Shown piece after piece: positions 39,046-55,950 of a DNA stretch of 64,000 bases (position 1 is the first letter of the stretch; the number at the start of each line of letters is the position of its first letter). Both the position numbers and the translations under genes were made by a program. The notes beneath the pieces were generated by a model, which was not told where the DNA came from, did not search any database, and saw nothing but the letters and a program-made list of their open reading frames with translations. This DNA comes from Acidobacteriaceae bacterium (GTDB taxonomy: Bacteria > Acidobacteriota > Terriglobia > Terriglobales > Acidobacteriaceae): assembly GCA_003156805.1 (NCBI GenBank), contig PMHV01000007.1, forward strand, positions 155 to 64,154, read 5' to 3'.

Positions 39046-39078
39046 AAAACAGCCCGGGCCGTCACGGCCCGGGCTGTT
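39046..39078 (-). terminator. terminator of the second S53 gene
   Basis: AACAGCCCGGGCC pairs with GGCCCGGGCTGTT around a short loop; on the minus strand it runs into TTTT. It lies 48 bases past the stop of the S53 gene ending at 39126. Confidence 0.8.
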
Positions 39079-39125
39079 CATCAAGTTAGTGCCGAGTCAG
39101 ACGGCACTGGCACATTTCACTGTCA

Positions 39126-41105
39126 CTAGTTCGTAACGTCGATCGTGACTGTAGTCGTTTCTGTCAAACTTCCGCCTGTGCCTGTTACGGTGACTGTGTG
39201 ATCTCCCAGCGGGACGTTCTTGCCCACCGTGACTTGCATGGTCGCGGTCCCTGCACCCGGCGCGGGTATAGAACTGGGCTTGAATTTCACGCTGGTCGGG
39301 CCGGACAAGGCAATGGCCGCGTCGAACCCGCCAGAAATCGTCGTCGTGATCGTGGTGGTGCCAGAACTACCCTGAGCAATAGTAATCGTTGAAGGCGACG
39401 CAGTGATGGTGAAGCTAGGAGGTGTCGCGCTTCCGGCAAGTGCGTTGATCAGGTTGTCCCCGTTCGGACTGCCCCAGCCGGTCGCCAAATCGTATCCGGC
39501 TGTTGCCGGATAGCCATTGCTCCCACTGATGATGTCGTGGAAGTCGGTGTCATAGTTCGGCCCCAAACCAATCGCGTAAAACATCGGATTGACGAAACCG
39601 AGCGTGGTGGTTGCTCCGTTAGAGAGATACTGTTGATTGGCGAGAGCCAGATAACCGGCCCACATGGGTGTCGCAAAGCTGGTCCCGCCATAAAGGTTGG
39701 CGGTGCAAGCCTCTTGATCGGCGCACACGTAAAAGGTGAAATTCGCGTTTGCCGAAACGTCTGGGCCGTTGCGATAGGTTTGGGAACACTTGGAGCAACC
39801 TGCGGCCGTGGTCACCTGCCACGAGGGAATCGCAAACTTGTCCGGCGAAATGCCGCCGCCACCGTCAGACCAAGCCGTCTCTGAACTCCAGGGCCCGCCT
39901 GCTCCGCTGGTCTCCAGGTCCGTTCCGCCGACCGACGTGAGATACACACTATCTGCAGGCCAAACGTCGGAACCCGCGGTCCACTTACCACTGTCACCGG
40001 CCGCCGAAAACAAATTCTGACCCTGCGCCGCGAACTCCTCGAAGTAGGGGTTGTCGGTGCTGGGGTCCGCCGGAGACCAACCCCACGAGCAGCTCAATTG
40101 TGCATTCAACGGGCTGGCCGTAGCCATGGCGTTAAAAATGCCGGCATCGTCGACTGGCTGCCCCGATAAGCCGCCGGTTCCGATGTACATCACCAGGCTG
40201 GCCATGCCGGGGGCCATGCCCAGCGCCTGCGTCATGTCTATGGTCTGTTCCGTGTCATCACACCTCGGATAGACGCAACTCGTACTCTGGGTGTCGACAG
40301 ACTTGAGCGTGATCGGGACAGTATTCGTCTGATGCGCGTTCTTGTAATACGTCGTCAGGTCGGCCAAATCGGTGCCAACGTACTCAAGCAGCCCGACCGA
40401 TTGGCCGCTTCCAGTCAGAGCCGTACCTTCGTAGTATGCCGCCCTCATATCGCTGCCGCAAAAAGATTCTTGCGGGCAGGAGCCGGTAGTGGCGTTGGAT
40501 CTCACACTCTGATTTTTCGCATCTTTACGCACAAGAGCGGGTTTCGGCTTCGAATAGCTGTCCAGCCCTGAGATGTGCCACAGCTGTACTCCCACGTTCG
40601 GCGTGGGCTCACGATCTGGAGCGAAGAAGGTCCGGCTTTCGGTCGGGTGCTGATAGACGCCCATGGTCAGATGAAGGGCTTTCTCAATGCTCGCTACCGG
40701 CCCCGTGACATCCAGGTTCATGCGATTGCGCGAAGTGCCAACCACCGTCAAGCCATTTGCTTCCGCGAAACGAACCACCGAGTCATAATCTTCCTGGCTG
40801 GGGCCAAACCTCTCGGTGAACTCTTCCACCGTGAGGAACTTGCGATAAGACGCGCTATAAGGATCGTAGAGTTCCTTCAGGAAATTATCCAACCCTGCCT
40901 GGTTGCGGTGCGGCAGGACAAGGACAAGACGCATGGACTGCGTTGCGGGGAGGTGCCCGACCAAAGGTGCCTGCCCATTGACCGTCACTTCACGCACATG
41001 ACGCGTCAACAGCGGTTGGGCATCCTGGGCAAAAGCGGCGCCGGCCACGCAGGCCATTACCGCAAGCGCAGCTATAACGCTGAGCGAGCTGAATCTTTCT
41101 TTCAT
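39126..41105 (-). CDS. S53 (sedolisin-like) secreted peptidase 2 with Ig-like tail
   Basis: A 659-residue paralogue of its neighbours with the same order: signal peptide ending AGAAFAQ, pro-domain with SASYRKFLTVEEFTERFGPS, S53 domain and Ig-like tail (STITIAQGSSGTTTITTTIS). The catalytic Glu and Asp are in DDTEQTIDMTQ, the Asp in SAAGDSGKW, and the Ser in GGTSFATPMWAG, so it should be active. Cysteine pairs unique to this group (SCVYPRCDD, GCSKCSQ, YVCADQEACTA) suggest disulfides. It is closer to copy 3 than to copy 1 in the tail, and differs from copy 1 in the SGLDSYSKPKPALVRKDA linker after the pro-domain. Confidence 0.93.
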   Translation of the reverse strand: MKERFSSLSVIAALAVMACVAGAAFAQDAQPLLTRHVREVTVNGQAPLVGHLPATQSMRLVLVLPHRNQAGLDNFLKELYDPYSASYRKFLTVEEFTERFGPSQEDYDSVVRFAEANGLTVVGTSRNRMNLDVTGPVASIEKALHLTMGVYQHPTESRTFFAPDREPTPNVGVQLWHISGLDSYSKPKPALVRKDAKNQSVRSNATTGSCPQESFCGSDMRAAYYEGTALTGSGQSVGLLEYVGTDLADLTTYYKNAHQTNTVPITLKSVDTQSTSCVYPRCDDTEQTIDMTQALGMAPGMASLVMYIGTGGLSGQPVDDAGIFNAMATASPLNAQLSCSWGWSPADPSTDNPYFEEFAAQGQNLFSAAGDSGKWTAGSDVWPADSVYLTSVGGTDLETSGAGGPWSSETAWSDGGGGISPDKFAIPSWQVTTAAGCSKCSQTYRNGPDVSANANFTFYVCADQEACTANLYGGTSFATPMWAGYLALANQQYLSNGATTTLGFVNPMFYAIGLGPNYDTDFHDIISGSNGYPATAGYDLATGWGSPNGDNLINALAGSATPPSFTITASPSTITIAQGSSGTTTITTTISGGFDAAIALSGPTSVKFKPSSIPAPGAGTATMQVTVGKNVPLGDHTVTVTGTGGSLTETTTVTIDVTN

Positions 41106-41217
41106 TTGTATGCATTCTCCTTGGGGTCAGTGATCACTAGGCTCTTGATATTGCAGAGGGTGTTGATGAGTCCAGAACGCTCGCCCTAGACGCTGGGAAA
41201 CTCTTAAAGGCTGTTCG

Positions 41218-41245
41218 ATTGTCTCACCTTGCCATTTATTGTCAA
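41218..41245 (-). promoter_or_regulatory. sigma70-type promoter of S53 gene 2
   Basis: Minus-strand TTGACA (41240-41245) and GACAAT (41218-41223), 16 bases apart, inside a block nearly identical to that before S53 genes 1 and 3. Confidence 0.75.
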
Positions 41246-41551
41246 CTGTGCAAATTCTTGCAACCCCGCATCCGGCGCGCCAATTCGCTCGCCGGATGCC
41301 CCAGGCCGCAAATTCTTTCGAACATTGACGACCCGTGGGGGGCGGACACCCCGTCCGCCGCCTTTGACTTCGCCGTTGATCTCGTGTGGCGCGGGCGCCT
41401 CGTCCGCGAACCGAGCGTAGCGCGGCCGCAGTTTCTCGTGCTCCGGGATTTTGTCATTCCCGCCAGGTTTCAGCCCCAGAGCCCGCCCTGTTTTGCCGAA
41501 ATCCTGGCGCAGCCGAGGGGAGAACAAGTCTGCTGTCTTCCGGCCCGAGCA

Positions 41552-41582
41552 GAAACAGCCCGGACCTTAAAGGTCCGGGCGG
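41552..41582 (-). terminator. terminator of the third S53 gene
   Basis: CAGCCCGGACCT and AGGTCCGGGC pair with a three-base loop; on the minus strand it is followed by TTTC. It lies 50 bases past the stop of the gene ending at 41632. The T-run is shorter than in the other two copies. Confidence 0.7.
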
Positions 41583-41631
41583 TTCAGCAAGTCAGTGCCG
41601 AGTCAGGCAGCACCCAACCGTTTCACTGTCA

Positions 41632-43581
41632 CTAGTTCGTGACGTCGATCGTGACCGTCGTCGTCTGTGTCACGCCTCCGCCCGTGCCCGTGATGGTGAG
41701 CGTGTGATCTCCGAGTGCCACGTTCTTGCCCACCGTGACTTTCACGGTCGAGGTTCCAGAACCCGGCGCCGGAATCGTGCTGGGATTGAACGACACGCTG
41801 GCCGGGCCGGACAAGGCAATCGCCGCGTCGAACCCGCCAGAAATCGTCGTCGTGATCGTCGTGCTGCCGGAACTACCCTGAGCAATGGTAATCGTCGATG
41901 GCGATGCGCTGATGGTGAAGTCAGGATTCGCCGCGGTTCCAGCCAGCGCGTTGACCAGGCCGTCCCCGTTCGGACTGCCCCAACCCGTCGCCAAATCGTA
42001 GCCGACGGTGGCCTGATAGCCGTTGCTGCCACTGACGATGTCGTGGAAAGCGACGTCGTAACCCGAGCCCAATCCAATCGTATAAAGGGCCGGATTGATG
42101 AAGCCCAGCGTGGTGGTTGCTCCGTTCGAGAGATACTGTTGGTTGGTGAGGGCCAGATAGCCAGCCCACATGGGCGCGGCAAAACTGGTTCCGCCATACA
42201 GGTTGGCACTGCAGGCGGTTTGGTCGGCACACACGTAAAAGGTAAAGTTCGCGTTTGCCGAAACGTCCGGGCCGTTGCGTAAGGTTTGCGAACATTTCGC
42301 GCAACCGGCGGCCGTGGTCACCTGCCACGAGGGAATCGGAATCTTGTTCGGCGAAATTCCGCCGCCGCCGTCCGACCATGCGGTTTCTGAACTCCATGGC
42401 CCACCCGCTCCGCTCGTTTCCAGGTCCGTCCCGCCAACCGACGTAAGATACGCGTTATCCGCCGGCCAGATGGATGGTGGCCACTTCCCGTCGTCGCCCG
42501 CCGCGTCAAACAGATTCTGACCCTGCGCCGCGAACTCTATGAAGATCGGGTTCAGTGTCTTGGGGTCTGCCGGGCTCCAGTACCACGAGCAACTCAACTG
42601 CGCGTTCAGCGGACTGGCCGTCGCCATGGCGTTAAAGATTGCGGAATCGGTAGAGCCCACGTACATCACCAGGCTCGACAAGCCCGGGGCCATGCCGATC
42701 GCCTGCGTCATGTCTATGGTCTGTTCCGTGTCATCACAGTCCTGCCTTTCCAGGCAACTCGTGGGGGTTCCGTCGACAGACAACAGAGTGATCGGGACAT
42801 TGTTGGTCTGATGCGCGTTCTTGAAGTACGTGTTCAGGTCGGCCAGATCGGTTCCGGCATACTCCAGCAACCCGAGCGTCTGTCCGGCGCCGGTGAGAGC
42901 CGTTCCACCGTAATATGCCGCCCTCATGTCGCTGCCGCAAAACGAAGCCGAAGGGCAGGAGCCGGTAGTGGCGTTGGAGTGCACATTCGCGCTCGCATCT
43001 TTACGCATAAGGGCGGGTTTCGGAATCGAATAATTATCCAGCCCCGAGATATGCCACAGCTGCACCCCAGCATCGGTCGTAGGCTCCCGGTCCGGAGCGT
43101 AGAAGGTGCGGCCTTCGGTGGGGTGCTGGTAGAGGCCCATGGTCACATGAAAAGCCTTCTCCACGCTCGCCACCGAACCCGTGACATTCATCGCCACGCG
43201 ATTGCGGGACGTTCCCGTCACCGTCAGGCCGTTCGCTTTCGCGAACTTAACCACGGCGTCAAAATCTTCCTGGCGCGGACCATACATTTCCGTGAATTCT
43301 TCCACGGTCAGGAAATGGCGATATACCCCGCTGCTAGGATCGTAGAGTTCCTTGACGAAGCTTTCTAACCCTGCCTGATCGCGCAGGGGCAGCATAATGG
43401 TAAGGCGCATGGACTGCGTCGCGGGCAGGCTCCCGACCGACGGCGCCTGTCCATTGCGCGTCACTTCACGCACATGGCGCGTCAACAGTGGTTGGGCATC
43501 CTGGGCAAAAGCGGCGCCGGCCACGCAGGCCATTGCCACAAGCGCAGCTATAACGCTGAGCACGCTAAATCTTTGTTTCAT
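41632..43581 (-). CDS. S53 (sedolisin-like) secreted peptidase 3 with Ig-like tail
   Basis: A 649-residue third paralogue. Signal peptide (ends AGAAFAQ), pro-domain (GVYRHFLTVEEFTEMYGPRQ), S53 domain and Ig-like tail (DFTISASPSTITIAQGSSGS). Catalytic Glu/Asp in DDTEQTIDMTQAIG, Ser in GGTSFAAPMWAG. The oxyanion segment reads DAAGDDGKW, keeping the Asp but changing the usual following Ser to Asp. The region after the catalytic Glu/Asp is ten residues shorter than in copies 1 and 2 (MYVGSTDSAIFNAM against MYIGTGGLSGQPVDDAGIFN). It is the first gene of the array in the direction of transcription. Confidence 0.93.
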   Translation of the reverse strand: MKQRFSVLSVIAALVAMACVAGAAFAQDAQPLLTRHVREVTRNGQAPSVGSLPATQSMRLTIMLPLRDQAGLESFVKELYDPSSGVYRHFLTVEEFTEMYGPRQEDFDAVVKFAKANGLTVTGTSRNRVAMNVTGSVASVEKAFHVTMGLYQHPTEGRTFYAPDREPTTDAGVQLWHISGLDNYSIPKPALMRKDASANVHSNATTGSCPSASFCGSDMRAAYYGGTALTGAGQTLGLLEYAGTDLADLNTYFKNAHQTNNVPITLLSVDGTPTSCLERQDCDDTEQTIDMTQAIGMAPGLSSLVMYVGSTDSAIFNAMATASPLNAQLSCSWYWSPADPKTLNPIFIEFAAQGQNLFDAAGDDGKWPPSIWPADNAYLTSVGGTDLETSGAGGPWSSETAWSDGGGGISPNKIPIPSWQVTTAAGCAKCSQTLRNGPDVSANANFTFYVCADQTACSANLYGGTSFAAPMWAGYLALTNQQYLSNGATTTLGFINPALYTIGLGSGYDVAFHDIVSGSNGYQATVGYDLATGWGSPNGDGLVNALAGTAANPDFTISASPSTITIAQGSSGSTTITTTISGGFDAAIALSGPASVSFNPSTIPAPGSGTSTVKVTVGKNVALGDHTLTITGTGGGVTQTTTVTIDVTN

Positions 43582-43894
43582 TTGTATGCATTCTCCTTAG
43601 GGTCAAAATCACTGGGTTTCGATATTGCAGGGGGTTGTCGATGAGTCCAGAACACTCGTACTGGACGCTGGGAAACTTTTGCTGGGAAACTTTTAAGGAC
43701 CGCTTAAGACCGTCCGATTGTCTCACCTTGCCATTTATTGTCAACTGTGAAAATTCTGAAACCCCGTGTCCCGCGCCCCAATTCGCCGGGCCACGTCCCC
43801 AAGCCGCAATTTCTTCCAACCTTAGCCACAGCCGTGTGGGGTGGAGACTCCTCTCCGCCCCCTCTGATTTTGCCGTTGATCCCGCGTGGCGTCC
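43582..43894. other. upstream region of S53 gene 3
   Basis: About 310 bases with a block close to those before S53 genes 1 and 2 (promoter at 43717-43744, then the CACAGTTGACA context), followed by a degenerate copy of the GGCGGACA-type palindrome around 43833-43880. No terminator is seen here. Confidence 0.6.
43717..43744 (-). promoter_or_regulatory. sigma70-type promoter of S53 gene 3
   Basis: Minus-strand TTGACA (43739-43744) and GACAAT (43717-43722) with a 16-base spacer. The transcript leader would be about 130 bases long. Confidence 0.75.
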
Positions 43895-43987
43895 CTACCG
43901 CTTGTACCAAAAGAACGCCAGCGCCACCAGCCCCACCGCCACAATCCACAACACAATCTCTTTCGTCCGCTTTTTTTCTTCAGCCAT
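43895..43987 (-). CDS. 30-residue single-helix membrane protein
   Basis: A short frame from the ATG at 43987 to TAG encodes MAEEKKRTKEIVLWIVAVGL, then VALAFFWYKR. It has a charged N-terminus, one hydrophobic helix of about 19 residues and a basic C-terminal end, a textbook small membrane protein. A GGAG motif lies only one base before the ATG, closer than normal, so initiation is uncertain. It is upstream of the S53 array on the same strand. Function unknown. Confidence 0.45.
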   Translation of the reverse strand: MAEEKKRTKEIVLWIVAVGLVALAFFWYKR

Positions 43988-44034
43988 GCTCCGCAGTAAA
44001 TCACACCTGAATAAACTGTCAAGAACAAACGGCA

Positions 44035-44105
44035 AGAGCTAAAGAACAAAGAACAAAGCACAAAGAACTAGAAAGTTAAAGAACCAAAGACCAAATAACA
44101 AATCA
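44035..44105. repeat. A-rich degenerate short tandem repeat
   Basis: Repeated units like AAAGAACAAAG and AAAGACCAAATAACAAAT run for about 70 bases after the stop of the LolA-like gene. No coding potential. Possibly a decayed simple repeat. Confidence 0.5.
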
Positions 44106-44130
44106 CAACCGCCAAATCTGCTTATCCCCC

Positions 44131-44940
44131 CTACGGCTTCGTCCCATCGCCCGCCGTCTTCGTCTCCGCGCTCGCACCCGTCCGTTTGTAATTTGAGTAC
44201 TTGATCACCTCTCGCACCCGGATCGACGCATTCCGAAACTGCAGCGTATCGTCCGACCGCGCATATCCCGCAAACCAGTACCGCCCATCCACCAGTTGCC
44301 GGTAGGTCACAAATGACGGCTGCAAGTCCTGATGTTCTCCCTTCTTCACTCGTATCCGTTGCGGCACCGTTTTTCCGCATACCTTCACGATCTGAAAGTC
44401 CTGGCCGTCCACCCAGATCCGTCCCTGAAAATACCGCTTGTTCTTCTCTTCTTTCTTCGGCTCCACGTGGAACACATACGTGTCCAGCTCGTCCACATGC
44501 TGCTGCCCCGCATAACTAAGGTTGTATTCCGGCAAATCCCCGGTCGTCAGCGTGAACGGCATAAACACCCGGATGTCGTCCATGTCCTCCGCGGTCAACT
44601 GAATCCTCTTCAGCGTCGTTTGCTCGGCAAACGTCACATTTTCCTGCCGCCGTCCTTTCTCGTCATAGGAAATGCTCGCCACCTCGTGGAACTCTCCATC
44701 CACCGCCTTCCCCGCCAGCGTCTGCACCAGCGCATCCTGCGTGAAGGTGTAACCCACGCGCGCCGCCTTCGTCGCCGCCTCTGCCGCGGCAAATTTCTGG
44801 ATCACTTCCGCCACGCTCATCGTCTTCGGCTGCGCAAAATCCAGCAGCCCATTGCCCGCTTCGCAGTCGGTTTGCGCCCGCGCCGCAACCGCCAGAAAAA
44901 TCGCCGCCACTCCCCCCGCCCACAGCATCCGTCCAGCCAT
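44131..44940 (-). CDS. exported LolA-like protein (outer-membrane lipoprotein-sorting fold), unknown function
   Basis: A 269-residue protein. The ATG at 44940 follows GGAG by six bases and begins a signal peptide (MAGRMLWAGGVAAIFLAVAARAQ); the longer open frame upstream crosses a repeat. The mature part alternates strands and ends with RYFQGRIWVDGQDFQIVKVCGK and YRQLVDGRYWFAGYARSDDTLQF. This is the pattern of the LolA/LolB-like or RseB-like beta-sheet fold that binds acyl chains. Such proteins are frequent in Acidobacteria next to unrelated genes. The ligand is unknown and the fold call is from pattern only. Confidence 0.6.
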   Translation of the reverse strand: MAGRMLWAGGVAAIFLAVAARAQTDCEAGNGLLDFAQPKTMSVAEVIQKFAAAEAATKAARVGYTFTQDALVQTLAGKAVDGEFHEVASISYDEKGRRQENVTFAEQTTLKRIQLTAEDMDDIRVFMPFTLTTGDLPEYNLSYAGQQHVDELDTYVFHVEPKKEEKNKRYFQGRIWVDGQDFQIVKVCGKTVPQRIRVKKGEHQDLQPSFVTYRQLVDGRYWFAGYARSDDTLQFRNASIRVREVIKYSNYKRTGASAETKTAGDGTKP

Positions 44941-45502
44941 ATTCCGCTCCAGTGTGGGGCGGACACTTCTGTCCGCCGCCTTTGCCTTTGAATTTGACCG
45001 CGCCGCCTGATCGTGGCCTGGAAGTTCTCCCCGCCGCCCTTGACTTTGACTCCCCGCTTGCGCGGCAATCATACAATTAAAGCGAGAATTGATCTGCACT
45101 CAGCAAGAAGCGGAGCCCACCTTTCAACCAGTCGAAGTGATCCTGTGGGACGGACACTGCTGTCCGTCGCCTTTGCCTCTGTTTCCTTTTGAAGTTAGTG
45201 ATCTCCCTCAAAACCAAAACCCCGCCTCGTCTCTTTTTCCCAATACGGGAACCTCGCCCGCAATTTCCGCCGATTCCCCTTGCCAGTCCAAACCCTCTTG
45301 CCGCTATCATTAAAATGGCGATGGATTCTGCCGGGAAGTAGCCGAGAAGTAAAGGACGCGAAAGCAAAATTAAAATAACGGCGAGTAAGTAACGCGAAGT
45401 AAATAGCTCTCAAGCAATAGCGGTGCAAACAGGCGCAGCCCACAAGCTGCGCCTGTTTCGTGCCCGAAATCCCAGGAGCCTACGCCGCCCCAGGAGTCCA
45501 CG
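44941..45502. other. intergenic, two palindromic repeat copies and a hairpin
   Basis: About 560 bases between divergent genes. It holds two copies of the dispersed repeat with GGCGGACACTTCTGTCCGCC (44958-44977) and GACGGACACTGCTGTCCGTC (45150-45169), each followed by GCCTTTGCCT. An A-rich stretch lies near 45350-45410 and the strong hairpin at 45427-45458. I see no gene. Confidence 0.6.
45427..45458 (+). terminator. 13-base-pair hairpin in the leader of the PD-(D/E)XK gene
   Basis: AAACAGGCGCAGC pairs perfectly with GCTGCGCCTGTTT around a six-base loop, with only three T after the stem. It lies 45 bases before the start codon at 45503. With no complete gene upstream on this strand to terminate, it may be an attenuator, a processing site or a repeat element; the terminator type is a best fit only. 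Confidence 0.4.
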
Positions 45503-46219
45503 ATGTCCCGAAAAAAACGCCGCAACCATTCCCCGAAAAAGTCAGCCAACTCGCAACCGCCCAACCGCCAGCCCTCCGACCAACCCGACAAACAGGCCGC
45601 CAGCCAGCCTTTCGGCCAGCCTTCCAACAACGACCCAACCACCCGCCCACGTCTCCCATTCCGCCAAGCCAATCGTTCAAACACCAAGCGTGTCGGAGAG
45701 CGCTCCGAAGCCGCCTTTCTCGAGCAAGCCTACGACTTCGGATTCGGCGTCGCCCGCCCCTGGGGCGACAGCGAGCGTTACGACTTCATTCTCGACAACG
45801 GCCTGCAACTTCTCCGCGTCCAGGTCAAAGGCACCGACTCGCTCCGCGCCGGCGCCTACGAAACCCGCGCCACCTATACCGTCGGCAAGCGCCGCGCCGT
45901 CTACACCCGCCGCGACATCGACTTCTTCGTCGGCCACGTCATCCCTCTCAACATCTGGTACATCATGCCCGTCGAAGTCTGCACTCCCCAGCCCATGCTC
46001 CGTTTCTATCCCCACCGCCAAGCCAAAAAGATGCGCCTCGAACCCTACCGCGAAGCCTGGCGCCTCCTCGAAGCCCAAGCAGACGCCAACGGCAACATAA
46101 CCCTCCAAGCCGCAGCCGCCTCGTCCGCGAGCCGGGCAAAGCGAGACCCCTGGCAAAAGCCAGTCCCCTGGCCCATCCCCAGACTGGAAATCCTGTTCCC
46201 CCGCAAACCCAAGCGTTAA
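45503..46219 (+). CDS. PD-(D/E)XK endonuclease-like protein
   Basis: A 238-residue protein. The first 60 residues are basic and Pro/Gln/Asn-rich. Residues about 62-170 match the small PD-(D/E)XK endonuclease family PF11645: GERSEAAFLEQAYDFGFGV (active-site Glu around 66-69), RYDFILDNG (D94) and LLRVQVKGT (Q107-V-K109). These give the E...D...QxK metal site also seen in I-Ssp6803I-type homing nucleases. A good AGGAG site precedes the ATG by six bases. No intron, methylase or transposase is adjacent, so its biological role (repair, defence or selfish element relic) is open. Confidence 0.75.
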   Translation: MSRKKRRNHSPKKSANSQPPNRQPSDQPDKQAASQPFGQPSNNDPTTRPRLPFRQANRSNTKRVGERSEAAFLEQAYDFGFGVARPWGDSERYDFILDNGLQLLRVQVKGTDSLRAGAYETRATYTVGKRRAVYTRRDIDFFVGHVIPLNIWYIMPVEVCTPQPMLRFYPHRQAKKMRLEPYREAWRLLEAQADANGNITLQAAAASSASRAKRDPWQKPVPWPIPRLEILFPRKPKR

Positions 46220-46603
46220 GAGAAGAACCATCCCGTTGTCATCCTGAGCGAAGCATGACGCCCACGAAGTGGACGTCATGCGCAGTCGAAAGCCTGCCCT
46301 GAGCTTGCCGAAGGGGATCCCTATCCCCCGCGCACTACCGTCGGCCTCAAAAGCATTTCCCCCACGGATTGCGACGATGTCCGACTTTGGGTGGCGCAGC
46401 GCTTTCAGCGCTGGCGGGACAGATCTAGCCGCATCATCGGGCGACTGGCTCACCTGCGACCCCGATCTCGCCACCCGCCGAAAATATCCCCTCGACCGAG
46501 AGGCCTTCAGGCCCAACGCACGCACGACGATTCACGCGGGAGAGGACAAAATCCGATGTACAATAACCCCCGCTCTTCGAGCGAAAAAAAGAGGTCCTAA
46601 CCA
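46220..46603. other. intergenic with dispersed repeat copies
   Basis: About 380 bases. At 46238-46320 it contains a repeat of the TCATCCTGAGCG ... CAGTCGAA type, interrupted by AGCCTGCCCTGAGCTTGCCG (46291-46310). A TACAAT box (46558-46563) and AGAGGT ribosome-binding site precede the S53 gene at 46604. No gene is seen. Confidence 0.55.
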
Positions 46604-48283
46604 ATGACCCTATCGTCGCGCCACTGTGCCACTCCTGTAGTTGTGTTCGCATGGACGGTCATCCTGACCGCCGGGTCTGTCCCGCTCGCCTTCTCCCAAG
46701 CCAATTCCGGCATGACCGAAGTCAAGAACAACACGCCATATGCTCTTCCGGAATCCTCGCTTGTGGGCCACAGCGATCCCAACGCTGTTCTCGACATCGT
46801 CGTCGGACTGAGATGGCAAAACGAGCAGCAACTCGACGATCAACTTGCCCGCATCCAAGACCCGGATTCGCCTGACTACCATCACTTCCTCACGTCCGAA
46901 GAGTTCGTAAGCCGGTTTGCCCCTGCTCAGGCGGACATCGACGGCGTAACCCGGTACCTTGAGTCCGCAGGACCTGTGGTGATGGAGGCCGCTTCTAACC
47001 GTAAGCTGGTTCACGCCAGAGGAACGGTTTCGCAGATCGAGCAGGCTTTCCAGGTAAGCATCAATGACTATGAGCTAAACGGAGAGCGGCATTTCAGCAA
47101 TGACCGCAACCCAAGCCTTCCCTCCAGTATCGGTGCAGCGGTTGAATCGGTTTTCGGCCTTTCCTCTCTTGACGCGTTCCATCCAAGTTCCCACGCTCGG
47201 CGCGCGGATTCACTCCCCGCCAGCGTGCCCATATACACGCCAGCTCAGCTTGCTACCGCTTACAACTTTCCCAACCTGAACAATGCCTTCCACGGGACCA
47301 CCACCTACGATGGCACCGGAGTCACGATCGCCATCGCCACTGCGTATTCCTACACCGCAAGCGATCTCAGTTATTTCTTGCAGTATTTCGAAATCACTCG
47401 CACTGGAGCCATCACTATAGTCCCGGTAAATGGAGGCAGCACTACGCCAAATTATGAGACGACTCTCGACATCGAGAACGCCTCGGCCGAGGCGACCGGC
47501 GCCAGCATTCTCGTTTACGAAGCTCCGAACAGCAGCTTCGCGAACTTCGAGCTGATGCACAACCAGATAGCGAGCGCCAATCTGGCCCAGGTTCTATCAA
47601 CCAGTTGGGTAGCCTGCGAAGCAAGCGAAGGCAGCAACCTCACCACCGAAAACGCCATCTTTAAGCAGATGTCAGCGGAAGGCATGACAATGTTCGTCGG
47701 GTCCGGAGATAACGGTGCCTATGCCTGTTCCGCCACCAGCAAGACTCTTGCTGTAGATTTCCCCTCAAGCAGTCCTTATTTCACCGCGGTCGGTGGCACC
47801 AATCTCTTCCTGACCACGAATGGGACCTACTCCAGCGAGACCGCCTGGACCAGTTCCGGCGGAGGCATTTCAAGTTCCTTCGCAAAGCCAGCCTGGCAAA
47901 AGGGACCGGGCGTTCCCACCAACAGCAAACGAGATCTTGCCGACGTGTCGTTCGATGCCTCAGCCAATACCGGTATCTACACTTACTATCAGGGCTTCTG
48001 GTACGACGGCTTTGGCACCAGCTACGGTGGGCCCAATTGGGCCGCTCTCTGGGCGCTTGCCATTCAGGCTCGCAGCGGAAAGCGCACTGGAAATGCCGAC
48101 CCCACAATCTATAAGATTGGCGCGAGCGCGGCGAATTACAAGCTGGATTTCTTCGACGTCACCACCGGCAGCAACGGAAACGGCAATGGTCCGGGCTACA
48201 GCGCCAAGAAAGACTGGGATTATCCCACCGGCTGGGGAAGCCCCAATGGGACCAATCTGGTCAATTATGTGAAAGCCAATTGA
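46604..48283 (+). CDS. S53 (sedolisin-like) secreted peptidase 4, diverged
   Basis: A 559-residue secreted peptidase with signal peptide (ends LAFSQA), pro-domain (about 40-195, SPDYHHFLTSEEFVSRFAPA) and S53 domain. The catalytic residues are E285 and D289 (NYETTLDIEN), D369 (GSGDNGAY) and S473 (GTSYGGPNWA), so it should be active. It is only distantly similar to the three tandem copies, has no Ig-like tail and is on the opposite strand. It ends right after the calcium-site segment (YPTGWGSPNGTNLVNYV). An AGAGGT ribosome-binding site precedes the ATG. Confidence 0.92.
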   Translation: MTLSSRHCATPVVVFAWTVILTAGSVPLAFSQANSGMTEVKNNTPYALPESSLVGHSDPNAVLDIVVGLRWQNEQQLDDQLARIQDPDSPDYHHFLTSEEFVSRFAPAQADIDGVTRYLESAGPVVMEAASNRKLVHARGTVSQIEQAFQVSINDYELNGERHFSNDRNPSLPSSIGAAVESVFGLSSLDAFHPSSHARRADSLPASVPIYTPAQLATAYNFPNLNNAFHGTTTYDGTGVTIAIATAYSYTASDLSYFLQYFEITRTGAITIVPVNGGSTTPNYETTLDIENASAEATGASILVYEAPNSSFANFELMHNQIASANLAQVLSTSWVACEASEGSNLTTENAIFKQMSAEGMTMFVGSGDNGAYACSATSKTLAVDFPSSSPYFTAVGGTNLFLTTNGTYSSETAWTSSGGGISSSFAKPAWQKGPGVPTNSKRDLADVSFDASANTGIYTYYQGFWYDGFGTSYGGPNWAALWALAIQARSGKRTGNADPTIYKIGASAANYKLDFFDVTTGSNGNGNGPGYSAKKDWDYPTGWGSPNGTNLVNYVKAN

Positions 48284-48672: not shown

Positions 48673-48971
48673 TTACAGCCGGTCCTTCCAATAACCCGGT
48701 TTCCGCTTGCTGTGCGCAACCGCAACAATAGTCACTAATTCCGGATCGTCAAGGTAAACGACAGAGAGGGAAAGCGCTGCATGACAAACCGGCGCGTTCC
48801 GTGAATGTATTTCGGCCAGCGCTGCGGCGCCTGAGCAATCAGATGGATGCCGCCCGAGACAGCCAAACGAAACTCCGACGATACCAGGGGATTTTGGGTT
48901 CGATACCAACGGGTCGAGCTTCGCAATTCCTCCCTAGCCTCGGGATGGAATTGAAACGACTTACTCCCCAT
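48673..48971 (-). pseudogene. ParE/RelE-type toxin gene broken by a one-base frameshift
   Basis: The first frame, from 48971, gives FHPEAREELRSSTRWYRTQN and continues to RFVMQRFPSL, then runs into a stop. The expected C-terminus, SVVYLDDPELVTIVAVAHSK then RKPGYWKDRL, is intact one frame over. Restoring one base near 48765-48770 would rebuild a normal ParE toxin of about 98 residues. Its start overlaps the end of the antitoxin gene by 11 bases, the usual layout. It is either a true inactivating deletion or a sequencing error. Confidence 0.75.
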
Positions 48972-49212
48972 CCGGGAACTCTTCGGCGAGCTCCCGAAGC
49001 ACCTGCTCGCCGGGAACGGTCTTCACCCGTCCAGAACGAATATCCTCCACCCGGCGCTTGATTTCTTCGTCCCAGGCGGCCTCCACTCCTTCTTCCGCAG
49101 GTTCGTTGTCCAGGGTTTCAACCAAACGATCAATCAGCAGTCCGCGCTCCTGCGTAGAAAGGGCGAGCGCCTTCTCCAGCAACTCCGAAACCTGCGGCGT
49201 CATCCGCGCCAT
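48961..49212 (-). CDS. addiction-module antitoxin (PF09720-like, ParE partner)
   Basis: An 83-residue antitoxin. The helical pattern MTPQVSELLEKALALSTQER followed by LLIDRLVETLD and WDEEIKRRVEDIRSGRVKTVPG matches the unstable addiction-module antitoxins that pair with ParE/RelE toxins. GAGG five bases before the ATG at 49212 supports this start over the GTG at 49218. It is intact, whereas its toxin is frameshifted. It may now serve only as a regulator or an anti-addiction factor against related toxins. Confidence 0.85.
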   Translation of the reverse strand: MARMTPQVSELLEKALALSTQERGLLIDRLVETLDNEPAEEGVEAAWDEEIKRRVEDIRSGRVKTVPGEQVLRELAEEFPDGE

Positions 49213-49318
49213 AACCACCTCGCTATCGAACCCATCTTACACCCGCCTGGCGGGTTGCCCACATCTGGGTGCCCTTCGCGTCCTTCGCGAGAAGTGGGGG
49301 AGCGACCGCCGCACCCAA

Positions 49319-49645
49319 TTACTCCCCCGCCGCCTTCTTCACATCCTCAAACTGATTAATCTCCACAGTCCCCTCGGGAAACCGCGCCGTGATTTTCAGC
49401 TCTCCGCCCATCGCTTTCACAAAACTCTGCAGCGTGCTCACGTACATATCCGCGCGCCGTTCCAGCTTCGACACCGCAGCCTGATTCACCCCTAGAATCT
49501 TTGCCAGATGAAGCTGGGTCATCTCCCGCGCCTCGCGCAGTTCGTCCAAGGGCATCTCCGCGCGATATTTCTCCGCCAGAGCGCGCGACCGTGCCTGCGC
49601 TTCAGGCGACCTCTTTGCACGAAGGACATTAAAATTCTTGGGCAT
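49319..49645 (-). CDS. XRE-family antitoxin (HigA-like)
   Basis: A 108-residue helix-turn-helix protein. The DNA-binding part is LREAREMTQLHLAKILGVNQ, continuing AAVSKLERR, about residues 35-65. A C-terminal strand pair (GGELKITARFPEGTVEINQF) is typical of HigA/MqsA-like antitoxins acting on RelE-type toxins. AGGAGG five bases before the ATG makes the start sure. It is downstream of its toxin (17-base gap), the toxin-first order common for HigBA. It should neutralise the toxin and repress the operon. Confidence 0.88.
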   Translation of the reverse strand: MPKNFNVLRAKRSPEAQARSRALAEKYRAEMPLDELREAREMTQLHLAKILGVNQAAVSKLERRADMYVSTLQSFVKAMGGELKITARFPEGTVEINQFEDVKKAAGE

Positions 49646-49662
49646 CGCACTTCCTCCTAAAA

Positions 49663-50010
49663 TTAGTTCAGATATTTCTTTCCAATCCGCGCCAGGTGCC
49701 GATCGAACAAGTCATCGGCAATCGGAACGAATCTCTCGTACCACTTGGGATCGCCGGTCTTATCCCCGCCAATCAGCAGCAGAGCCGCGCGCCGGGGATC
49801 GAACGCAAACAGAACTCGAAGCTGCCTCGCGCCAACTTTCCCACGCAGTTCTTTCATGTTCGGATGGCGGGAACTTGTAATCACATCAGCGTAAGGGCGA
49901 GCGAGAGTGGGCCCGCGCTCTTGGAGAAGTTCAACCACGGTATCGATCTCGTCCTGCTCCTCTTCCAATAGTTTGTCCCACCAAGCTTCGAACTCGGGGG
50001 TTGTATTCAA
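49663..50010 (-). CDS. RelE/HigB-type toxin (Gp49-like)
   Basis: An mRNA-interferase-type toxin of about 115 residues. The core is NTTPEFEAWWDKLLEEEQDE, then LARPYADVITSSRHPNMKEL, RQLRVLFAFDPRRAALLLIG and the C-terminal GDKTGDPKWYERFVPIADDL, all characteristic of the phage Gp49-like HigB family. The conserved core begins at a TTG (50010); an ATG at 50121 exists but adds 37 residues unlike the family. Catalytic basic residues (Arg in RQLRVLF and Lys in GDKTGDPKWYE) are kept. With the XRE antitoxin it forms the only intact toxin-antitoxin pair of this island. Confidence 0.85.
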   Translation of the reverse strand: MNTTPEFEAWWDKLLEEEQDEIDTVVELLQERGPTLARPYADVITSSRHPNMKELRGKVGARQLRVLFAFDPRRAALLLIGGDKTGDPKWYERFVPIADDLFDRHLARIGKKYLN

Positions 50011-50289
50011 CCGCCCACGGCATGTTTGCAGTATTCCATGAAAGGAATATTGTGTCCAGCAAAAACCGCCCGGTAACGATCCCCCCGGCCCCTTTCCTTT
50101 CAACAACTTAACTCCATACAATCCCCCAAACCACCGCTAAACCCCATTTTTTCCCCGTTCGTTGAGATATGGATGCACCCTTCTCGGGGCGTCTGTAGCA
50201 TAGCTTCAGTCATTAACCCAGGGAAAAGTGTAACAACCAGAAATCAGCAAAGAGGGCTTTATTCCCAGGAAGAACTATTTTCAGAGCGA

Positions 50290-50333
50290 ACAAAGGCTAA
50301 GAGCTAAAAAGCCAGGAGCTAAGAGCTAAAACC
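50290..50333. repeat. short AGCTAA repeats before the radical SAM gene
   Basis: Three units of (A)GCTAAGAGCTAA-type sequence, a degenerate short tandem repeat, occupy the immediate leader of the gene at 50334. A similar set (AGCTTCTAGCTTCTAGCTA) follows the gene at 52579-52611. Confidence 0.5.
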
Positions 50334-52574
50334 ATGCGCAAGCCCATCAAGTACGTAGAAAAAGCAGTTACCGTCGCCGCCAAAGGCGCGTGGGTGGTCT
50401 TCGATCGCCTCAATCAGATCAAGCCCAACCCGTCGCCCGTCCCTAAATGGTCCGACAAACCGCTGCTCAAGTCCTACGAAAAGACCAAGCCGCCGCTCGG
50501 CTGGCCCCGCTCCACCGATTCGCTTTGCCCCAAGTGTGTTCCCGAAATTCGCCAGCAGATTCTCGACGGCCACCTGCCCCACGAAATCCTGCTCAACGAA
50601 AAGATCGGCGAGATCAAAGCCACCATCGTCGAACGCGACGGCAAGATCCTCATGGTCAAGGACTGCCCGAAACACGGCCACTTCGAAGATGTGATGTCGA
50701 TCGACACTCAATTCTCCAAGCATCTCGAAGACGTTTTCCCCGGCCGCGACATCGCCGCGCACAACGACGAGAAGCTGCACAACCACGGCACATCGACCGT
50801 TAAGTACGGACGCGGCTCCGTCCTCACCATCGATCTCACCAACCGCTGCAACATGATGTGCGATCCCTGCTTCATGGACGCCAACCAGGTCGGCTTCGTC
50901 CACGAACTGCAGTGGGAAGAAATCAAGACCATGCTGGACAACGCCATCACCATCAAGCCCCGCCGTCAGATGAGCGTGCAGTTCTCCGGCGGCGAGCCTA
51001 CGTTGTCGCCGTATTTCCTCGATGCCGTGCGCTATGCCCGCAAGGTTGGCTATAACTCCGTGCAGGCCGCCACCAACGGAATCGAATTCGCCAAAAGCTT
51101 TGAGTTTTGCCAGCAGGCCGTCGAAGCCGGAATGCGTTACGCCTACTTGCAATTCGACGGCATCGGCAACGCCGCCAACGCCCACCGCATGGTCGGCAAC
51201 TTGTTCGACGTGAAACTGAAAGCTATCGACAACCTGCATCGCGCCGGAGTCGAAATCGTTCCCGTAGTGACCATTGTCAACGGCATTAACAACGAGCAGG
51301 TCGGACGTATCATCAAGTTCGCGTTAGACAATCCCAGAAAAATCGGATTCCTGAGTTTTCAACCGGTAAGCTTCACCGGCCGCGACGAAGCCGTCACCGA
51401 CGATCGCCGCCAGGCCCAGCGCTACACGCTCTCGCACCTGGCCCACGACGTAAGAACTCAAACCGGCCTGGGCGAACCCAGCCGCGACTGGTTTCCCATT
51501 TCATTCATGTCGACTTTCAGCGATTGGGCCGACCTGATGCACGCCGAAGACAAAAACAACGACTGGGGCCAACTCTCCTGCGGCTGCCACCCTAATTGCG
51601 GGACGGGGATGGCGGTGATGATTGACAAGGAAACTAAGGAAGCGGTTCCGGTGACGGCATTTCTTAAAGGCGATCAGCTGGCTAAGGATATAGCCCGGGT
51701 GAACGATGCGTCGCGCGGGAAATTCCTGACCGTGTTTGGAATGGCGCTGTGCCTGATGAAGAACTACGATCCGTTTCAGGCGCCGAAGCATTTCAAGCTG
51801 ATGGATCTGCTGCGCAAGTTCGACAAGAACTACAACGCCACGGGTCGGAACTACGGCAAAGTGGGTCCGGACCGGACGGTGGAAGACGTGATGAAACGGC
51901 GGCAAGACCGCTGGAACTTCTTGTTCATCGCGGGCATGTGGTTCCAGGATTTGTTTAACTACGACTTCCGGCGGACGGAGCAGTGCATTATTCCCTACGC
52001 GACGCAGGAAGGCGAAATCAGCTTCTGCGCGTACAACACGGGAGTGGGATGGCGCAACATCATCGAAAAGATGCACATGACGGCCACGCTGACCAAGTGG
52101 TACGACGAACATGGACGGCACGAAATTTTTGCCGGCGGCAAGAAAGTGAAAATGGAAGACGAAACGCATTCTCTCTTGCTGCGGGAAAACATCGTGACCA
52201 CTGAGTTGCAGCACGATCTCGACAAGCTGGGCATTGCGAAGAACGCGCGCGAGGAGAAGAAGCGGGCTAGAGATGCAAAGGCGGCGGCAACCCCGGCGTC
52301 GGACCTCGGACCCTTCGACGGGCTCAGGGCAGGCTCTCAGACCTCAGCTCGTGACGTTGGGCAAGAGGCTGCGGTTGTGGCGAGGCATCGTGGGCCACAG
52401 AAGGATGACGAGGCTTACAACGCGCGCATGGCGTCGCTGTACCGCGAAGTGGTGCTGAAGGAGAAGCCGGTGGTGGCGGAGAACGGATTCATTCCGCTGG
52501 GGGCTTTGATCAAGCCGGCCAACGGGGCGCATGCTGCGAAGCCGGCAGTGGCCGAGCCGGTGGCGGGGGATTGA
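50334..52574 (+). CDS. radical SAM enzyme resembling tetraether/membrane-spanning lipid synthases
   Basis: A 746-residue cytoplasmic radical SAM enzyme. The cluster motif is C172-x3-C176-x2-C179 (RCNMMCDPCF), followed by SGGEPTL. A cysteine-rich N-terminal domain (C65-x2-C68 in SLCPKC, C111 in KDCPKHGHF) and further cysteines in SCGCHPNCGTG, EQCI and SFCAYN suggest extra Fe-S or zinc sites. This architecture resembles the archaeal tetraether synthase (Tes, MJ0619-like) and bacterial membrane-spanning lipid synthases. Acidobacteria are known to make iso-diabolic acid and branched tetraethers, so carbon-carbon coupling of acyl chains is plausible. Residues about 640-746 are low-complexity and contain a repeat-derived PFDGLRAGS. 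The function is inferred. Confidence 0.75.
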   Translation: MRKPIKYVEKAVTVAAKGAWVVFDRLNQIKPNPSPVPKWSDKPLLKSYEKTKPPLGWPRSTDSLCPKCVPEIRQQILDGHLPHEILLNEKIGEIKATIVERDGKILMVKDCPKHGHFEDVMSIDTQFSKHLEDVFPGRDIAAHNDEKLHNHGTSTVKYGRGSVLTIDLTNRCNMMCDPCFMDANQVGFVHELQWEEIKTMLDNAITIKPRRQMSVQFSGGEPTLSPYFLDAVRYARKVGYNSVQAATNGIEFAKSFEFCQQAVEAGMRYAYLQFDGIGNAANAHRMVGNLFDVKLKAIDNLHRAGVEIVPVVTIVNGINNEQVGRIIKFALDNPRKIGFLSFQPVSFTGRDEAVTDDRRQAQRYTLSHLAHDVRTQTGLGEPSRDWFPISFMSTFSDWADLMHAEDKNNDWGQLSCGCHPNCGTGMAVMIDKETKEAVPVTAFLKGDQLAKDIARVNDASRGKFLTVFGMALCLMKNYDPFQAPKHFKLMDLLRKFDKNYNATGRNYGKVGPDRTVEDVMKRRQDRWNFLFIAGMWFQDLFNYDFRRTEQCIIPYATQEGEISFCAYNTGVGWRNIIEKMHMTATLTKWYDEHGRHEIFAGGKKVKMEDETHSLLLRENIVTTELQHDLDKLGIAKNAREEKKRARDAKAAATPASDLGPFDGLRAGSQTSARDVGQEAAVVARHRGPQKDDEAYNARMASLYREVVLKEKPVVAENGFIPLGALIKPANGAHAAKPAVAEPVAGD

Positions 52575-52620
52575 AGTTCAGCTTCTAGCTTCTAGCTATT
52601 AGCTTCTAGCTCAAAACAAT

Positions 52621-52649
52621 GGGCCGCCTTCGGGCGGCCCGATTCTTTT
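52621..52649 (+). terminator. terminator of the radical SAM gene
   Basis: GGGCCGCC-TTCG-GGCGGCCC hairpin with a UUCG tetraloop, followed by GATTCTTTT. It lies 47 bases past the stop. Confidence 0.85.
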
Positions 52650-52764: not shown

Positions 52765-55700
52765 TTATTCGGGCAGGCCAAGTGGTGGGAGCGAGCGGAC
52801 AATGTTCACGGTTCCGAGGCTGACGGTGATGACTTGGCCGATTAGGCGGAGGATGTATTGGGGGTCGTCTGGGCGGTTGGGGTCGTTAGTGATGCCGCTG
52901 CGCTTGTCGGTTGACACCTGATATTGATCGATGACCCATTCGAGGGCGGAGCGGTTGCCGAGGCGGTAGTCGTAGGTTTCTTTCGGGATGCCGCTCAGGG
53001 TTAGGAATTGGTTGTAGATGAGCGTGGTTTTGTCTTTGCCCAGCTTCATCTTTTTGACGCGGTAGTCTAGTTTTTCTCCTCTCTTTTCTACTTTCGTGAG
53101 CTTGTATTCGGGCTGCTGTTCGTAGTGGACGTGGATTTCGGTTAGGTGCTGGCCAGCCTTTACGAACGCTCGGAAGACTTCGAGGACCGTGGTGGCTCCA
53201 GTTGCCTGCGAGCTTCGCTCTCCGGCAACGGCCTTCGGCAGAGTAGAATTTGTTTCTTTTTTTGCGTTTACCCCGGACTTACGTCCGGGGCTATTATCTG
53301 CCGCCCCTACGGGGCTGGAGTTCTCCGGCTTCGAGGTCTCGTCGCTACCCACAAAGGGGATGCGGGGGAGTTCGCGGCGGAGGTTGGCGGCATAGCGCTC
53401 GCGGTATTCGGGGTGGTGCAAGACGGCGTAGATGTGGTGGAAGATGTCCCACTTGGTGATGGAGGGGTCGTGGTAGTGGGCGCGGAATTGTTCGAGCGCC
53501 CAGTCGGTGATGTTCTCGCGGCGGTGGGTGCCGTCTTCGGCGTAGGTGTAGAAGGGGAAACATTGCGTCTTCTCGAACGCCAGATCGTGAGAGACGATGT
53601 GTTCGCTCGCGAGAACTCCGAACGCTTGCCTGTTGCCTGTGCCGAGTATTGCTACGACGAGATTTTCCCGCTCTGTTGCGGAGTTGGGAAATATCTCCGG
53701 GAAGAGCCCGCGGCGGTGTGTAAGAATCTCGTCGAAGTAGAGATACTGCGCGCAAAAAGGCCTATATAGGGCCCGTCGCACGTTCGCCTCTTTGTAGGTG
53801 GCGCGCTTGTTCGAAAGAAGGCATTCTTTCAGTCTGCTGCTCCATTTGATCTCCCTGTCGTCGTATGTCAGAAAATCATCGACGGGCACTGTCTTCTCTG
53901 AGTTGTTCCATCGGGCTAGTTCCGCGCTTTGGTTGTAAACCCACGCGTCGCGATTGGTCGTTACTCCGAGTGAGTATGTTGAAAAGAGCCCGGTTCCCGG
54001 CTCGCTGCCTTTTCTGACAGCCATAGGGCGAAGCTGCCGGAACTCGGTTGACGGCTGCTGGCCTATCCACCGGTGGGATTCGTCCGGGGCGATCATTCTC
54101 CACGGGACCCCCGAGATGCTGCGCTGTTCCTCGAGTGCTTCGTACCGTTCTTCCTTGCGGAGATATTCTTGCAACGAAAAATACCGGATCTCCTTTTGTG
54201 CGGTCTGCTGACTTCTGATGAGAACGTTAATGCTCACACCGACCTGAATTCCAAAGACGTTGTGGGTTGTACCAGACAATTTCGGATTCTTGCGGACATT
54301 CCCCCCGAGATCGAGAATGTATATTCGCTGAAAGTCCTCTTCTAGGCACTGGCGCATTCCGTCGAACGCTGACTCGTCGACGAAGCTGTCGTTGGTCACA
54401 AAAACGATTAGCCCGTCCCGGCCTATTCTGTCACTTGCCCACCTGATTGCCTTCACGTACACATCGGAGAGCGCTGAGGTGTTGCTCGCCTTCGATGATT
54501 TAGAGTACGTTCGGTTAACCCTTTCATCGACGTGCTTGTACTTTCTCTTCCGGTTGTTATCGTTCTCATTAACCTGCCAGGCGTTGTAAGGAGGATTACC
54601 AATAATGACGAAGATGGGAGACTTCTTCTGTCTAATCACCCGTTCGGCATTCTCGGCGGTCATGAAGCCGAGCGACGCCTGTTCCGCTTCCGCTAACTCA
54701 AACGTATCTACCAGACAAATTCCCGGAAACGATTGATACTCGCCGGTGCGTTCGTAATATTCGTGCTCGATATTCATGCTTGCAATGTAATAGGGCAGGA
54801 GCATGACTTCGTTGCAGTGCAGTTCGTTTTCGTATTTGTATTGCAGGTCGGTGGCTTTGATCTCCTGCATGATGCGGACGATGAAGTTGCCGGTGCCGAC
54901 GAAGGGATCGAGGATGTGGACGCCTTTGTCGCCGAGGGAGCGTCCGAATTCTTTTTGCAGAATCTCTTCGACGCTGCGCACCATGAAGTTGACGATGGGC
55001 TGCGGGGTGTAGACGATGCCGTGGGTGTCGGCTTCTTTCGGCGAATAGCCCTGGAAGAAGCGCTCGTAGACCTTGTTGAGGAAGGCTTGTTTTTCGGAGA
55101 AGCTGGTCGCGTTCTCCGCACTTTGCTCGATGGCTTTGTAGAAGCGGTCGAGGTTGCCGAGGAACTCATCGCGGTTGAAGGCGCGTTTGGTGAGTTCGGT
55201 GATTACCTTCTCGATCTCAGCCGCGACTACGTTGCGACGGGTGAAATCCGGGTTGGCGAATATCTTGCGGAAGATACGCTCGGTGAGCAGATGCTGGACG
55301 AGCATGCGCTCAACCGCTTCCTCGGATAGGTTGGGATTGATGGCCTGGCGGCAGAGGGCGTAGAAGTCTTCAAAGCTGCGGACGAATGCTGGATTTAGGC
55401 GGCGTTCGTCGTCAATGGTCTTCTTGACGGCGGCGGCTAGCTCCGGGATGCGCTCGGAGAAATCGCCGACGGCTTGTTCCCACTTCTGGATGTGAGGGGC
55501 TTTGTAGTCGAAGAACTGGTTGACGATCTGGACCAGGGATTCGGGGCGGGAGATGTCCTCATCGAGGGGGATGCGGGCGCCACCCTGATAGAGGATGGCG
55601 CGCTCAGGGGCTTGAAAGATGATGTTGTCGCGGGGGTAGCCTTTATCGAGCTTGAGTTGGATTTCTTTGGCGAGGTCGTCTTTTTCGTCTTTGGCTTCCC

Positions 55701-55950
55701 AGTAGCCGTGGGGCAGGTGGTAGAGATCGACGAGCGCTCCGTCGACGATTACGGAGGAGCCACGGCGCTCGATGCGGTATTCGGGAACGAGCGTGAGGGG
55801 CGGCTTGGCCTTGCGCCCGGATTTGGCCAGCAGATCCTGAAAGGCGCTGCGGACGGCCATTTCATGGTCGATGTGGAGCTGGCCGAACTGACCTAGGGTC
55901 TCGTAGTAGGCCTTGACGGTGGCGTGCGTTGGCTTGAGGGCGAGAGACAT
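52765..55950 (-). CDS. single-chain restriction endonuclease-methyltransferase (type ISP/IIG-like, no helicase)
   Basis: A 1061-residue protein. An N-terminal nuclease motif of PD-(D/E)XK type (D75 and E85-A-K87 in VDLYHLPHGYWEAKDEKDD) precedes an all-helical coupler (about 180-330). The N6-adenine methyltransferase follows: motif I LDPFVGTGNFIV (347-358) and motif IV NPPY (452-455). The last 450 residues should be the target-recognition and C-terminal helical parts. Type ISP enzymes share nuclease, methylase and target domains but also carry a helicase, which is absent here. It may be a type IIG-like enzyme or a derivative. A REP-like palindrome is inserted in frame near residue 880. Confidence 0.85.
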   Translation of the reverse strand: MSLALKPTHATVKAYYETLGQFGQLHIDHEMAVRSAFQDLLAKSGRKAKPPLTLVPEYRIERRGSSVIVDGALVDLYHLPHGYWEAKDEKDDLAKEIQLKLDKGYPRDNIIFQAPERAILYQGGARIPLDEDISRPESLVQIVNQFFDYKAPHIQKWEQAVGDFSERIPELAAAVKKTIDDERRLNPAFVRSFEDFYALCRQAINPNLSEEAVERMLVQHLLTERIFRKIFANPDFTRRNVVAAEIEKVITELTKRAFNRDEFLGNLDRFYKAIEQSAENATSFSEKQAFLNKVYERFFQGYSPKEADTHGIVYTPQPIVNFMVRSVEEILQKEFGRSLGDKGVHILDPFVGTGNFIVRIMQEIKATDLQYKYENELHCNEVMLLPYYIASMNIEHEYYERTGEYQSFPGICLVDTFELAEAEQASLGFMTAENAERVIRQKKSPIFVIIGNPPYNAWQVNENDNNRKRKYKHVDERVNRTYSKSSKASNTSALSDVYVKAIRWASDRIGRDGLIVFVTNDSFVDESAFDGMRQCLEEDFQRIYILDLGGNVRKNPKLSGTTHNVFGIQVGVSINVLIRSQQTAQKEIRYFSLQEYLRKEERYEALEEQRSISGVPWRMIAPDESHRWIGQQPSTEFRQLRPMAVRKGSEPGTGLFSTYSLGVTTNRDAWVYNQSAELARWNNSEKTVPVDDFLTYDDREIKWSSRLKECLLSNKRATYKEANVRRALYRPFCAQYLYFDEILTHRRGLFPEIFPNSATERENLVVAILGTGNRQAFGVLASEHIVSHDLAFEKTQCFPFYTYAEDGTHRRENITDWALEQFRAHYHDPSITKWDIFHHIYAVLHHPEYRERYAANLRRELPRIPFVGSDETSKPENSSPVGAADNSPGRKSGVNAKKETNSTLPKAVAGERSSQATGATTVLEVFRAFVKAGQHLTEIHVHYEQQPEYKLTKVEKRGEKLDYRVKKMKLGKDKTTLIYNQFLTLSGIPKETYDYRLGNRSALEWVIDQYQVSTDKRSGITNDPNRPDDPQYILRLIGQVITVSLGTVNIVRSLPPLGLPE
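53271..53315. repeat. REP-like double palindrome inside the methylase reading frame
   Basis: CCCCGGACTTACGTCCGGGG (53271-53290) and GCCCCTACGGGGC (53303-53315) are two hairpins separated by TATTATCTG. The unit is translated on the minus strand as part of a low-complexity linker (PVGAADNSPGRKSG), and the reading frame of the methylase stays open across it. Confidence 0.7.

Follow-up and report, generated by a model that had tools for sequence, protein, structure and literature searches.

An open reading frame at 50334–52574 on the forward strand of the window, the whole 64,000-nucleotide stretch of Acidobacteriaceae DNA analysed here, runs from ATG to TGA and encodes a Tes-like radical SAM enzyme of 746 amino acids. 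By analogy with the archaeal enzyme GDGT-MAS, this protein probably couples iso-C15 tails tail-to-tail into membrane-spanning lipids of the iso-diabolic acid type, a reading to which we give a probability of roughly 0.7. The gene and its close relatives, referred to here as clade A, are the best candidate for the iso-diabolic acid synthase of the acidobacteria. For a synthase, GDGT-MAS is the top relative both by sequence and by fold, metal ligands are kept, the distribution agrees as a correlation inside one phylum, true Tes genes lie nearby in some genomes, and the window's genome also encodes a Ger/PlsA-like protein. Against it stand a failed cut-off for the Tes family model NF045702, the absence of a metal site, one of four, that the sole solved member has, and the lipids reported for Solibacter usitatus. 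In the literature searched, no acidobacterial member was found to have been tested biochemically or genetically.

Past temperature and pH are widely reconstructed from the branched GDGTs of soils and sediments. Acidobacteria are the main known producers of these lipids, the coupling enzyme in these bacteria is unproven, and the clade A gene is a candidate for it. In many genomes of lineages with 12–30% iso-diabolic acid it is the only Tes-type gene. Is there an acidobacteria-wide class of tail-to-tail synthases that has given up the auxiliary cluster at the N-terminal side, perhaps because an oxygen-sensitive enzyme family adapted to aerobic life, and is this class the long-sought iso-diabolic acid synthase? 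In that full breadth the proposal is tentative, and we hold it to be possible rather than probable.

Relationship to the Tes family

In Pfam the protein matches Radical_SAM at residues 168–330 (E = 5e-17) and Zn_ribbon_HMPTM, the HMPTM N-terminal zinc ribbon, at residues 58–122 (E = 4e-13). The top NCBIfam model is tetraether lipid synthase Tes, NF045702, which covers residues 61–582 with 314.9 bits (E = 8.5e-94); other radical SAM models have shorter coverage or far lower scores. The curated cut-off of NF045702 is 450 bits, and only proteins above that value are called true or canonical Tes here, so that the query falls short of the name.

Among solved structures the sole strong relative is GDGT-MAS of Methanocaldococcus jannaschii (MJ0619; 7TOL and 7TOM). 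About 490 residues align with 7TOL by phmmer (E = 2.5e-62), and a profile search returned 7TOL/7TOM at 3.9e-68. MoaA chains come next at about 1e-5. GDGT-MAS was also first in Foldseek (E = 4e-20, next best 7e-7; TM 0.56–0.57 by target length) with an AlphaFold model of low mean pLDDT (57.5), built on 53 close sequences and too shallow for judging cluster geometry. The initial annotation had proposed a radical SAM enzyme of the Tes/Mss class and named unrelated radical SAM enzymes as the relatives that would speak against it; the nearest relative is GDGT-MAS, and at the level of the family the proposal holds. Membership of the Tes superfamily is near certain. The narrower placement needs correction, as the protein is very likely a member of a distinct subfamily within the Tes family that lacks the N-terminal [4Fe-4S] cluster (the N cluster), and not Tes proper.

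Motifs often mislead on radical SAM families, and MoaA, NirJ and others do match the core of this protein, which would allow for a radical SAM enzyme with an unrelated role, in cofactor, peptide or hopanoid modification. We consider this very improbable. The MoaA- and NirJ-type matches span the SAM barrel only, at 25–70 bits against 315 bits over the full length for Tes, and Pfam finds no SPASM or cobalamin domain. Nor were precursor peptide or cofactor genes recognised near the gene, either in the window or in related loci.

Metal sites of the clade A enzymes

The metal sites of MJ0619 are a rubredoxin-like iron (C9, C12, C33 and H36), an N-terminal [4Fe-4S] cluster held by C73, C77, C80 and a conserved histidine, the SAM cluster, and a C-terminal [4Fe-4S] cluster (the C cluster) with a labile Met439 (PMC9433317). 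We took the numbering of the 7TOL chain from our alignment, in which C33, H36, C73, C77, C80 and Met439 land as published. The alignment points to C338, C455 and C470 as the cysteine ligands of the C cluster and to H83 as the histidine of the N cluster. It holds 151 proteins, with 105 rows for clade A (at least 61% identity to the query) and 32 for acidobacterial Tes-like proteins.

Every motif named by the initial annotation is present, and the cysteines it singled out fall at ligand positions of the metal sites. CPKC (residues 65–68) and CPKHG (residues 111–115) form the rubredoxin-like site C65-x2-C68 ... C111-x2-H114 (50526–50678), which aligns with C9, C12, C33 and H36 of MJ0619 and is kept in all compared relatives with sequence there. 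The CX3CX2C motif, CNMMCDPC at residues 172–179, is the radical SAM cluster C172-x3-C176-x2-C179 (50847–50870), found by Pfam and by the alignment. This motif, the rubredoxin-like site and the SAM-binding residues Q268, S271 and R275 are retained by all clade A rows with sequence at these positions. SCGCHPNC (residues 415–422) contains C416-x-C418-x3-C422 (51579–51599), of which C422 aligns with C338 as a putative C-cluster ligand; the three cysteines are present in 105/105 clade A rows. C551 in EQCI and C565 in FCAYN (51984–52028) correspond to C455 and C470, also likely ligands of this cluster, and are present in all 103 rows with sequence there. M535 (51936–51938) aligns with Met439, the labile ligand of this cluster in GDGT-MAS (PMC9433317), and is found in 105/105 clade A rows. 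Fold, rubredoxin-like site, SAM cluster, SAM-binding residues and C-cluster positions are thus shared by clade A and archaeal Tes.

The two differ in the N cluster. A comparison with MJ0619 for extra Fe-S cysteines, as suggested earlier, showed that the C-cluster cysteines are present, that the N-cluster ligands are absent, and that C416 and C418 are additional. At 50772–50804, K147, H151, S154 and K157 take the places of C73, C77, C80 and H83. None of the 105 clade A rows has any of these ligands, while all four are found in 32/32 acidobacterial Tes-like rows. Within a conserved LHxHGxS stretch, clade A mostly has K or H at the first of these positions, H at the second, S at the third and K or T at the fourth. 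This loss of metal ligands explains the score below the NF045702 cut-off. The extra cysteines of the CxCx3C motif, C416 and C418 before C422, are invariant in 105/105 clade A rows.

Clade A proteins also have longer termini than archaeal Tes. The clade-specific N-terminal extension (residues 1–64; 50334–50525) has a predicted helix at residues 3–26, with pLDDT of 74–91 by block, followed by the conserved KWSDKPLLKSYEKTKPPLGWPRSTDSL with invariant columns. The median number of residues before the first ligand cysteine is 64 in clade A and 44.5 in acidobacterial Tes; after C565 it is 143 versus 35. The C-terminal extension past the end of MJ0619 (52080–52571) is conserved to about residue 605 and then becomes variable and of low complexity. 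Within this variable tail is a short GC-rich repeat, CTTCGACGGGCTCAGGGCA, at 52313–52331 (+), which reads in frame as PFDGLRAG and has one near-copy at 46295–46313. Its 2 matches in the window, against 0.68 expected, are not significant in the window alone, and no PFDGLRAG-type peptide is present in the tails of the 105 relatives.

In GDGT-MAS a cluster sulphur holds the substrate ahead of C–C bond formation (PMC9433317). As the residues important for this chemistry are kept in clade A, we propose the same mechanism by analogy. Electrons would pass to the SAM cluster (C172/C176/C179), and the resulting 5'-deoxyadenosyl radical would abstract a hydrogen from the terminal carbon of the first chain. 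The carbon radical would then be kept as a C–S bond on the C-terminal [4Fe-4S] cluster (C422/C551/C565, with labile M535) until a second SAM cleavage activated the second chain and the C–C bond was formed. The rubredoxin-like iron would stay on the N-terminal side of the enzyme. The roles of the remaining metallocofactors of GDGT-MAS were stated not to be clear (PMC9433317), and a natural loss of the N cluster bears on this question. If the reaction is the same, then the N-terminal [4Fe-4S] cluster, exposed at the surface in archaeal Tes and gone here, is not essential in the clade A branch. Loss of an exposed cluster would, speculatively, fit the aerobic life of many of these acidobacteria.

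Distribution of clade A and of iso-diabolic acid

The proteins without an N cluster (groups A, A2 and B) fall into a single clade (SH-aLRT support 100%), nested among acidobacterial Tes, in a quick, midpoint-rooted tree with long branches whose deep order is unsure. The stem of this clade is long, at 2.08 changes per site, and a branch with 100% support separates clade A from the other sequences. Canonical acidobacterial Tes, members of the same superfamily, keep the N cluster, are mostly 31–37% identical to the query and fall on separate branches.

The gene is present as one copy in the window's genome and is strongly conserved among relatives. Identity to the query is mostly 85–93% within the genus, 72–75% in Acidobacteriaceae and 61–69% in the majority of the remaining families of the order and class. 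Such a fall with kinship is, on these comparisons, what a core gene with vertical inheritance shows. A match was found in 31/32 good-quality genomes of relatives, a few of these matches being to other groups of the family. In the phylum sample the Tes model matches 175/297 genomes and exceeds the cut-off in 31/297. All 34 genomes sampled from the window's family have a clade A-level match, and three of the 34 (G127, G170 and G311) have a true Tes over the cut-off. Chloracidobacterium validum BV2-C (G146), of another class, carries a clade A gene (L172) with 67% identity and the same ligand pattern, and no Tes-model match in that genome passes 450 bits.

How does this compare with the lipids? 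Iso-diabolic acid makes up 11.8–30.4% in Edaphobacter strains (PMC11354219), has been reported in acidobacterial subdivisions 1, 3, 4 and 6 (PMC13274423), and is among the primary fatty acids of the genus Chloracidobacterium (PMC12816986). Given 34/34 versus 3/34 in the window's family, and the case of C. validum, canonical Tes cannot be what generally makes iso-diabolic acid in these acidobacteria; the clade A enzyme could be. Solibacter usitatus is reported to lack iso-diabolic acid and to make brGDGTs (PMC10087280), and the Solibacter usitatus group carries a clade A-type gene without the N cluster (L097).

The clade A enzyme might instead act on preformed diethers, as a brGDGT (tetraether) synthase like archaeal Tes, following an ester reductase of the Ger/PlsA type. 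The chemistry would be identical to the coupling of ester lipids, Tes and Mss reportedly accept either type of linkage, ester or ether (PMC13274423), and a Solibacter pathway has been proposed (PMC10087280). The window's genome does encode, elsewhere, a Ger/PlsA-like protein with two BcrAD_BadFG domains and DUF2229 (L161:322–3795), a candidate ester-to-ether reductase by its sequence. Such a double activation domain has been described for Ger (PMC13274423). However, Ger and PlsA are inseparable by sequence (PMC13274423), nor can the assignment be separated in this way from related activases. In addition, what is found in subdivision 1 is chiefly hydrolysis-released iso-diabolic acid, and ethers are rare there or absent (PMC13274423, PMC11354219). 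We therefore regard a brGDGT synthase as unlikely, and a synthase of iso-diabolic acid lipids as the preferred reading.

True Tes lies close to the clade A gene in all three family genomes that have it. In G311 the two genes are in tandem on one strand, 246 bp apart (L143:7818–12001), and are a candidate two-gene operon for membrane-spanning lipids. The distance is 3.4 kb in G170 and 5.7 kb in G127; as these two belong to the same genus, the three genomes count as two independent cases. That some genomes hold both genes could also mean that clade A has kept the fold for another tail modification, such as intramolecular chain cross-linking, mid-chain C–C bonding or methyl transfer. The replaced N cluster, the stem of 2.08 changes per site, the two extra invariant cysteines and the long terminal extensions would all be in keeping with such a change. 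Yet the C-cluster and SAM-site residues of GDGT-MAS are retained, and the presence pattern agrees with iso-diabolic acid, which leaves another modification a slim chance beside tail-to-tail coupling.

More divergent proteins also occur in the genus. In three paralogues with 41–43% identity to the query (L146:4715–6547, L147:4837–6684 and L148:3920–5770) the N cluster is missing and C-cluster cysteines are replaced as well, C338 by Q or W and C455 by S, while the SAM motif and the rubredoxin-like site are kept. Judging by these residues, the three proteins probably cannot work through a C–S intermediate as GDGT-MAS does, and must have another function. A complementary loss is seen in L152, L153 and L154 (24–27% identity), where the N cluster is kept and the C-cluster cysteines are absent. 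The sole B12-binding radical SAM protein examined in the window's own genome resembles, to our reading, the hopanoid protein HpnJ, and was not counted as a GrsA-like ring synthase.

A bacterial membrane-spanning lipid synthase, Mss, was reportedly described by Sahonero-Canavesi et al. in 2022. Mss has been demonstrated in other bacteria and has a reported Tes-like architecture (PMC13274423); compared by description only, it is like the clade A enzyme in this architecture and in the proposed product, diabolic or iso-diabolic acid lipids. Zeng et al. (2022) listed 456 bacterial Tes homologues, with Edaphobacter, Koribacter and Solibacter named (PMC8941075), and a Solibacter pathway with Tes homologues has been drawn (PMC10087280). 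The Edaphobacter aggregans homologue of Zeng et al., 32% identical to MA_1486 (PMC8941075), probably belongs to clade A, since all sampled genomes of the window's family have clade A. The find is accordingly less isolated than first thought, as the gene is a core gene of these acidobacteria and already among the known bacterial Tes homologues (PMC8941075). The missing N cluster and its phyletic pattern are not mentioned in the papers searchable here and, as far as we found, are new.

Surroundings of the gene

The gene had been described as standing alone, and it does: the neighbours on both sides are on the opposite strand, and among 80 named related loci any given neighbour is shared by 14 at most. 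A conserved neighbourhood was rejected as a functional clue, with no lipid gene recurring nearby in the 80 loci. Plasmid records yielded only weak relatives (22–29% identity) in haloarchaea, actinobacteria and Persicobacter, and viral contigs none.

Short AGCTA-type repeats on both sides had also been noted. An AGCTAAG-type heptad repeat (50295–50331, +) reaches the start codon, and an AGCTAGA-type repeat follows the stop codon (52580–52611, −). These are real, with 6 matches, a number reached in 0/100 shuffles, but are not specific to the gene. The heptad has 16 matches at about 12 places in this genome (0 for the reversed control); as a dispersed genomic repeat it is uninformative on the Tes-like gene. 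The repeats were likewise rejected as a mobile-element boundary, being dispersed and patchy beside orthologues (12/108 upstream, 17/108 downstream). A terminator-like hairpin at 52620–52641 (+), of 9 pairs with 8 GC, agrees with the terminator first assigned to the gene and possibly serves both sides.

Directly upstream, at 48961–50121 (−), are an addiction-module antitoxin and an HTH antitoxin paired with a Gp49-type toxin. Downstream, at 52765–55950 (−), is a single-chain Type ISP restriction-modification enzyme with coupler, N6 methylase and specificity domains. Further upstream, four sedolisin-like (pro-kumamolisin) proteases are clustered at 36572–48283, three of them consecutive at 36572–43581 and the fourth, which the Pfam check covered, at 46604–48283.
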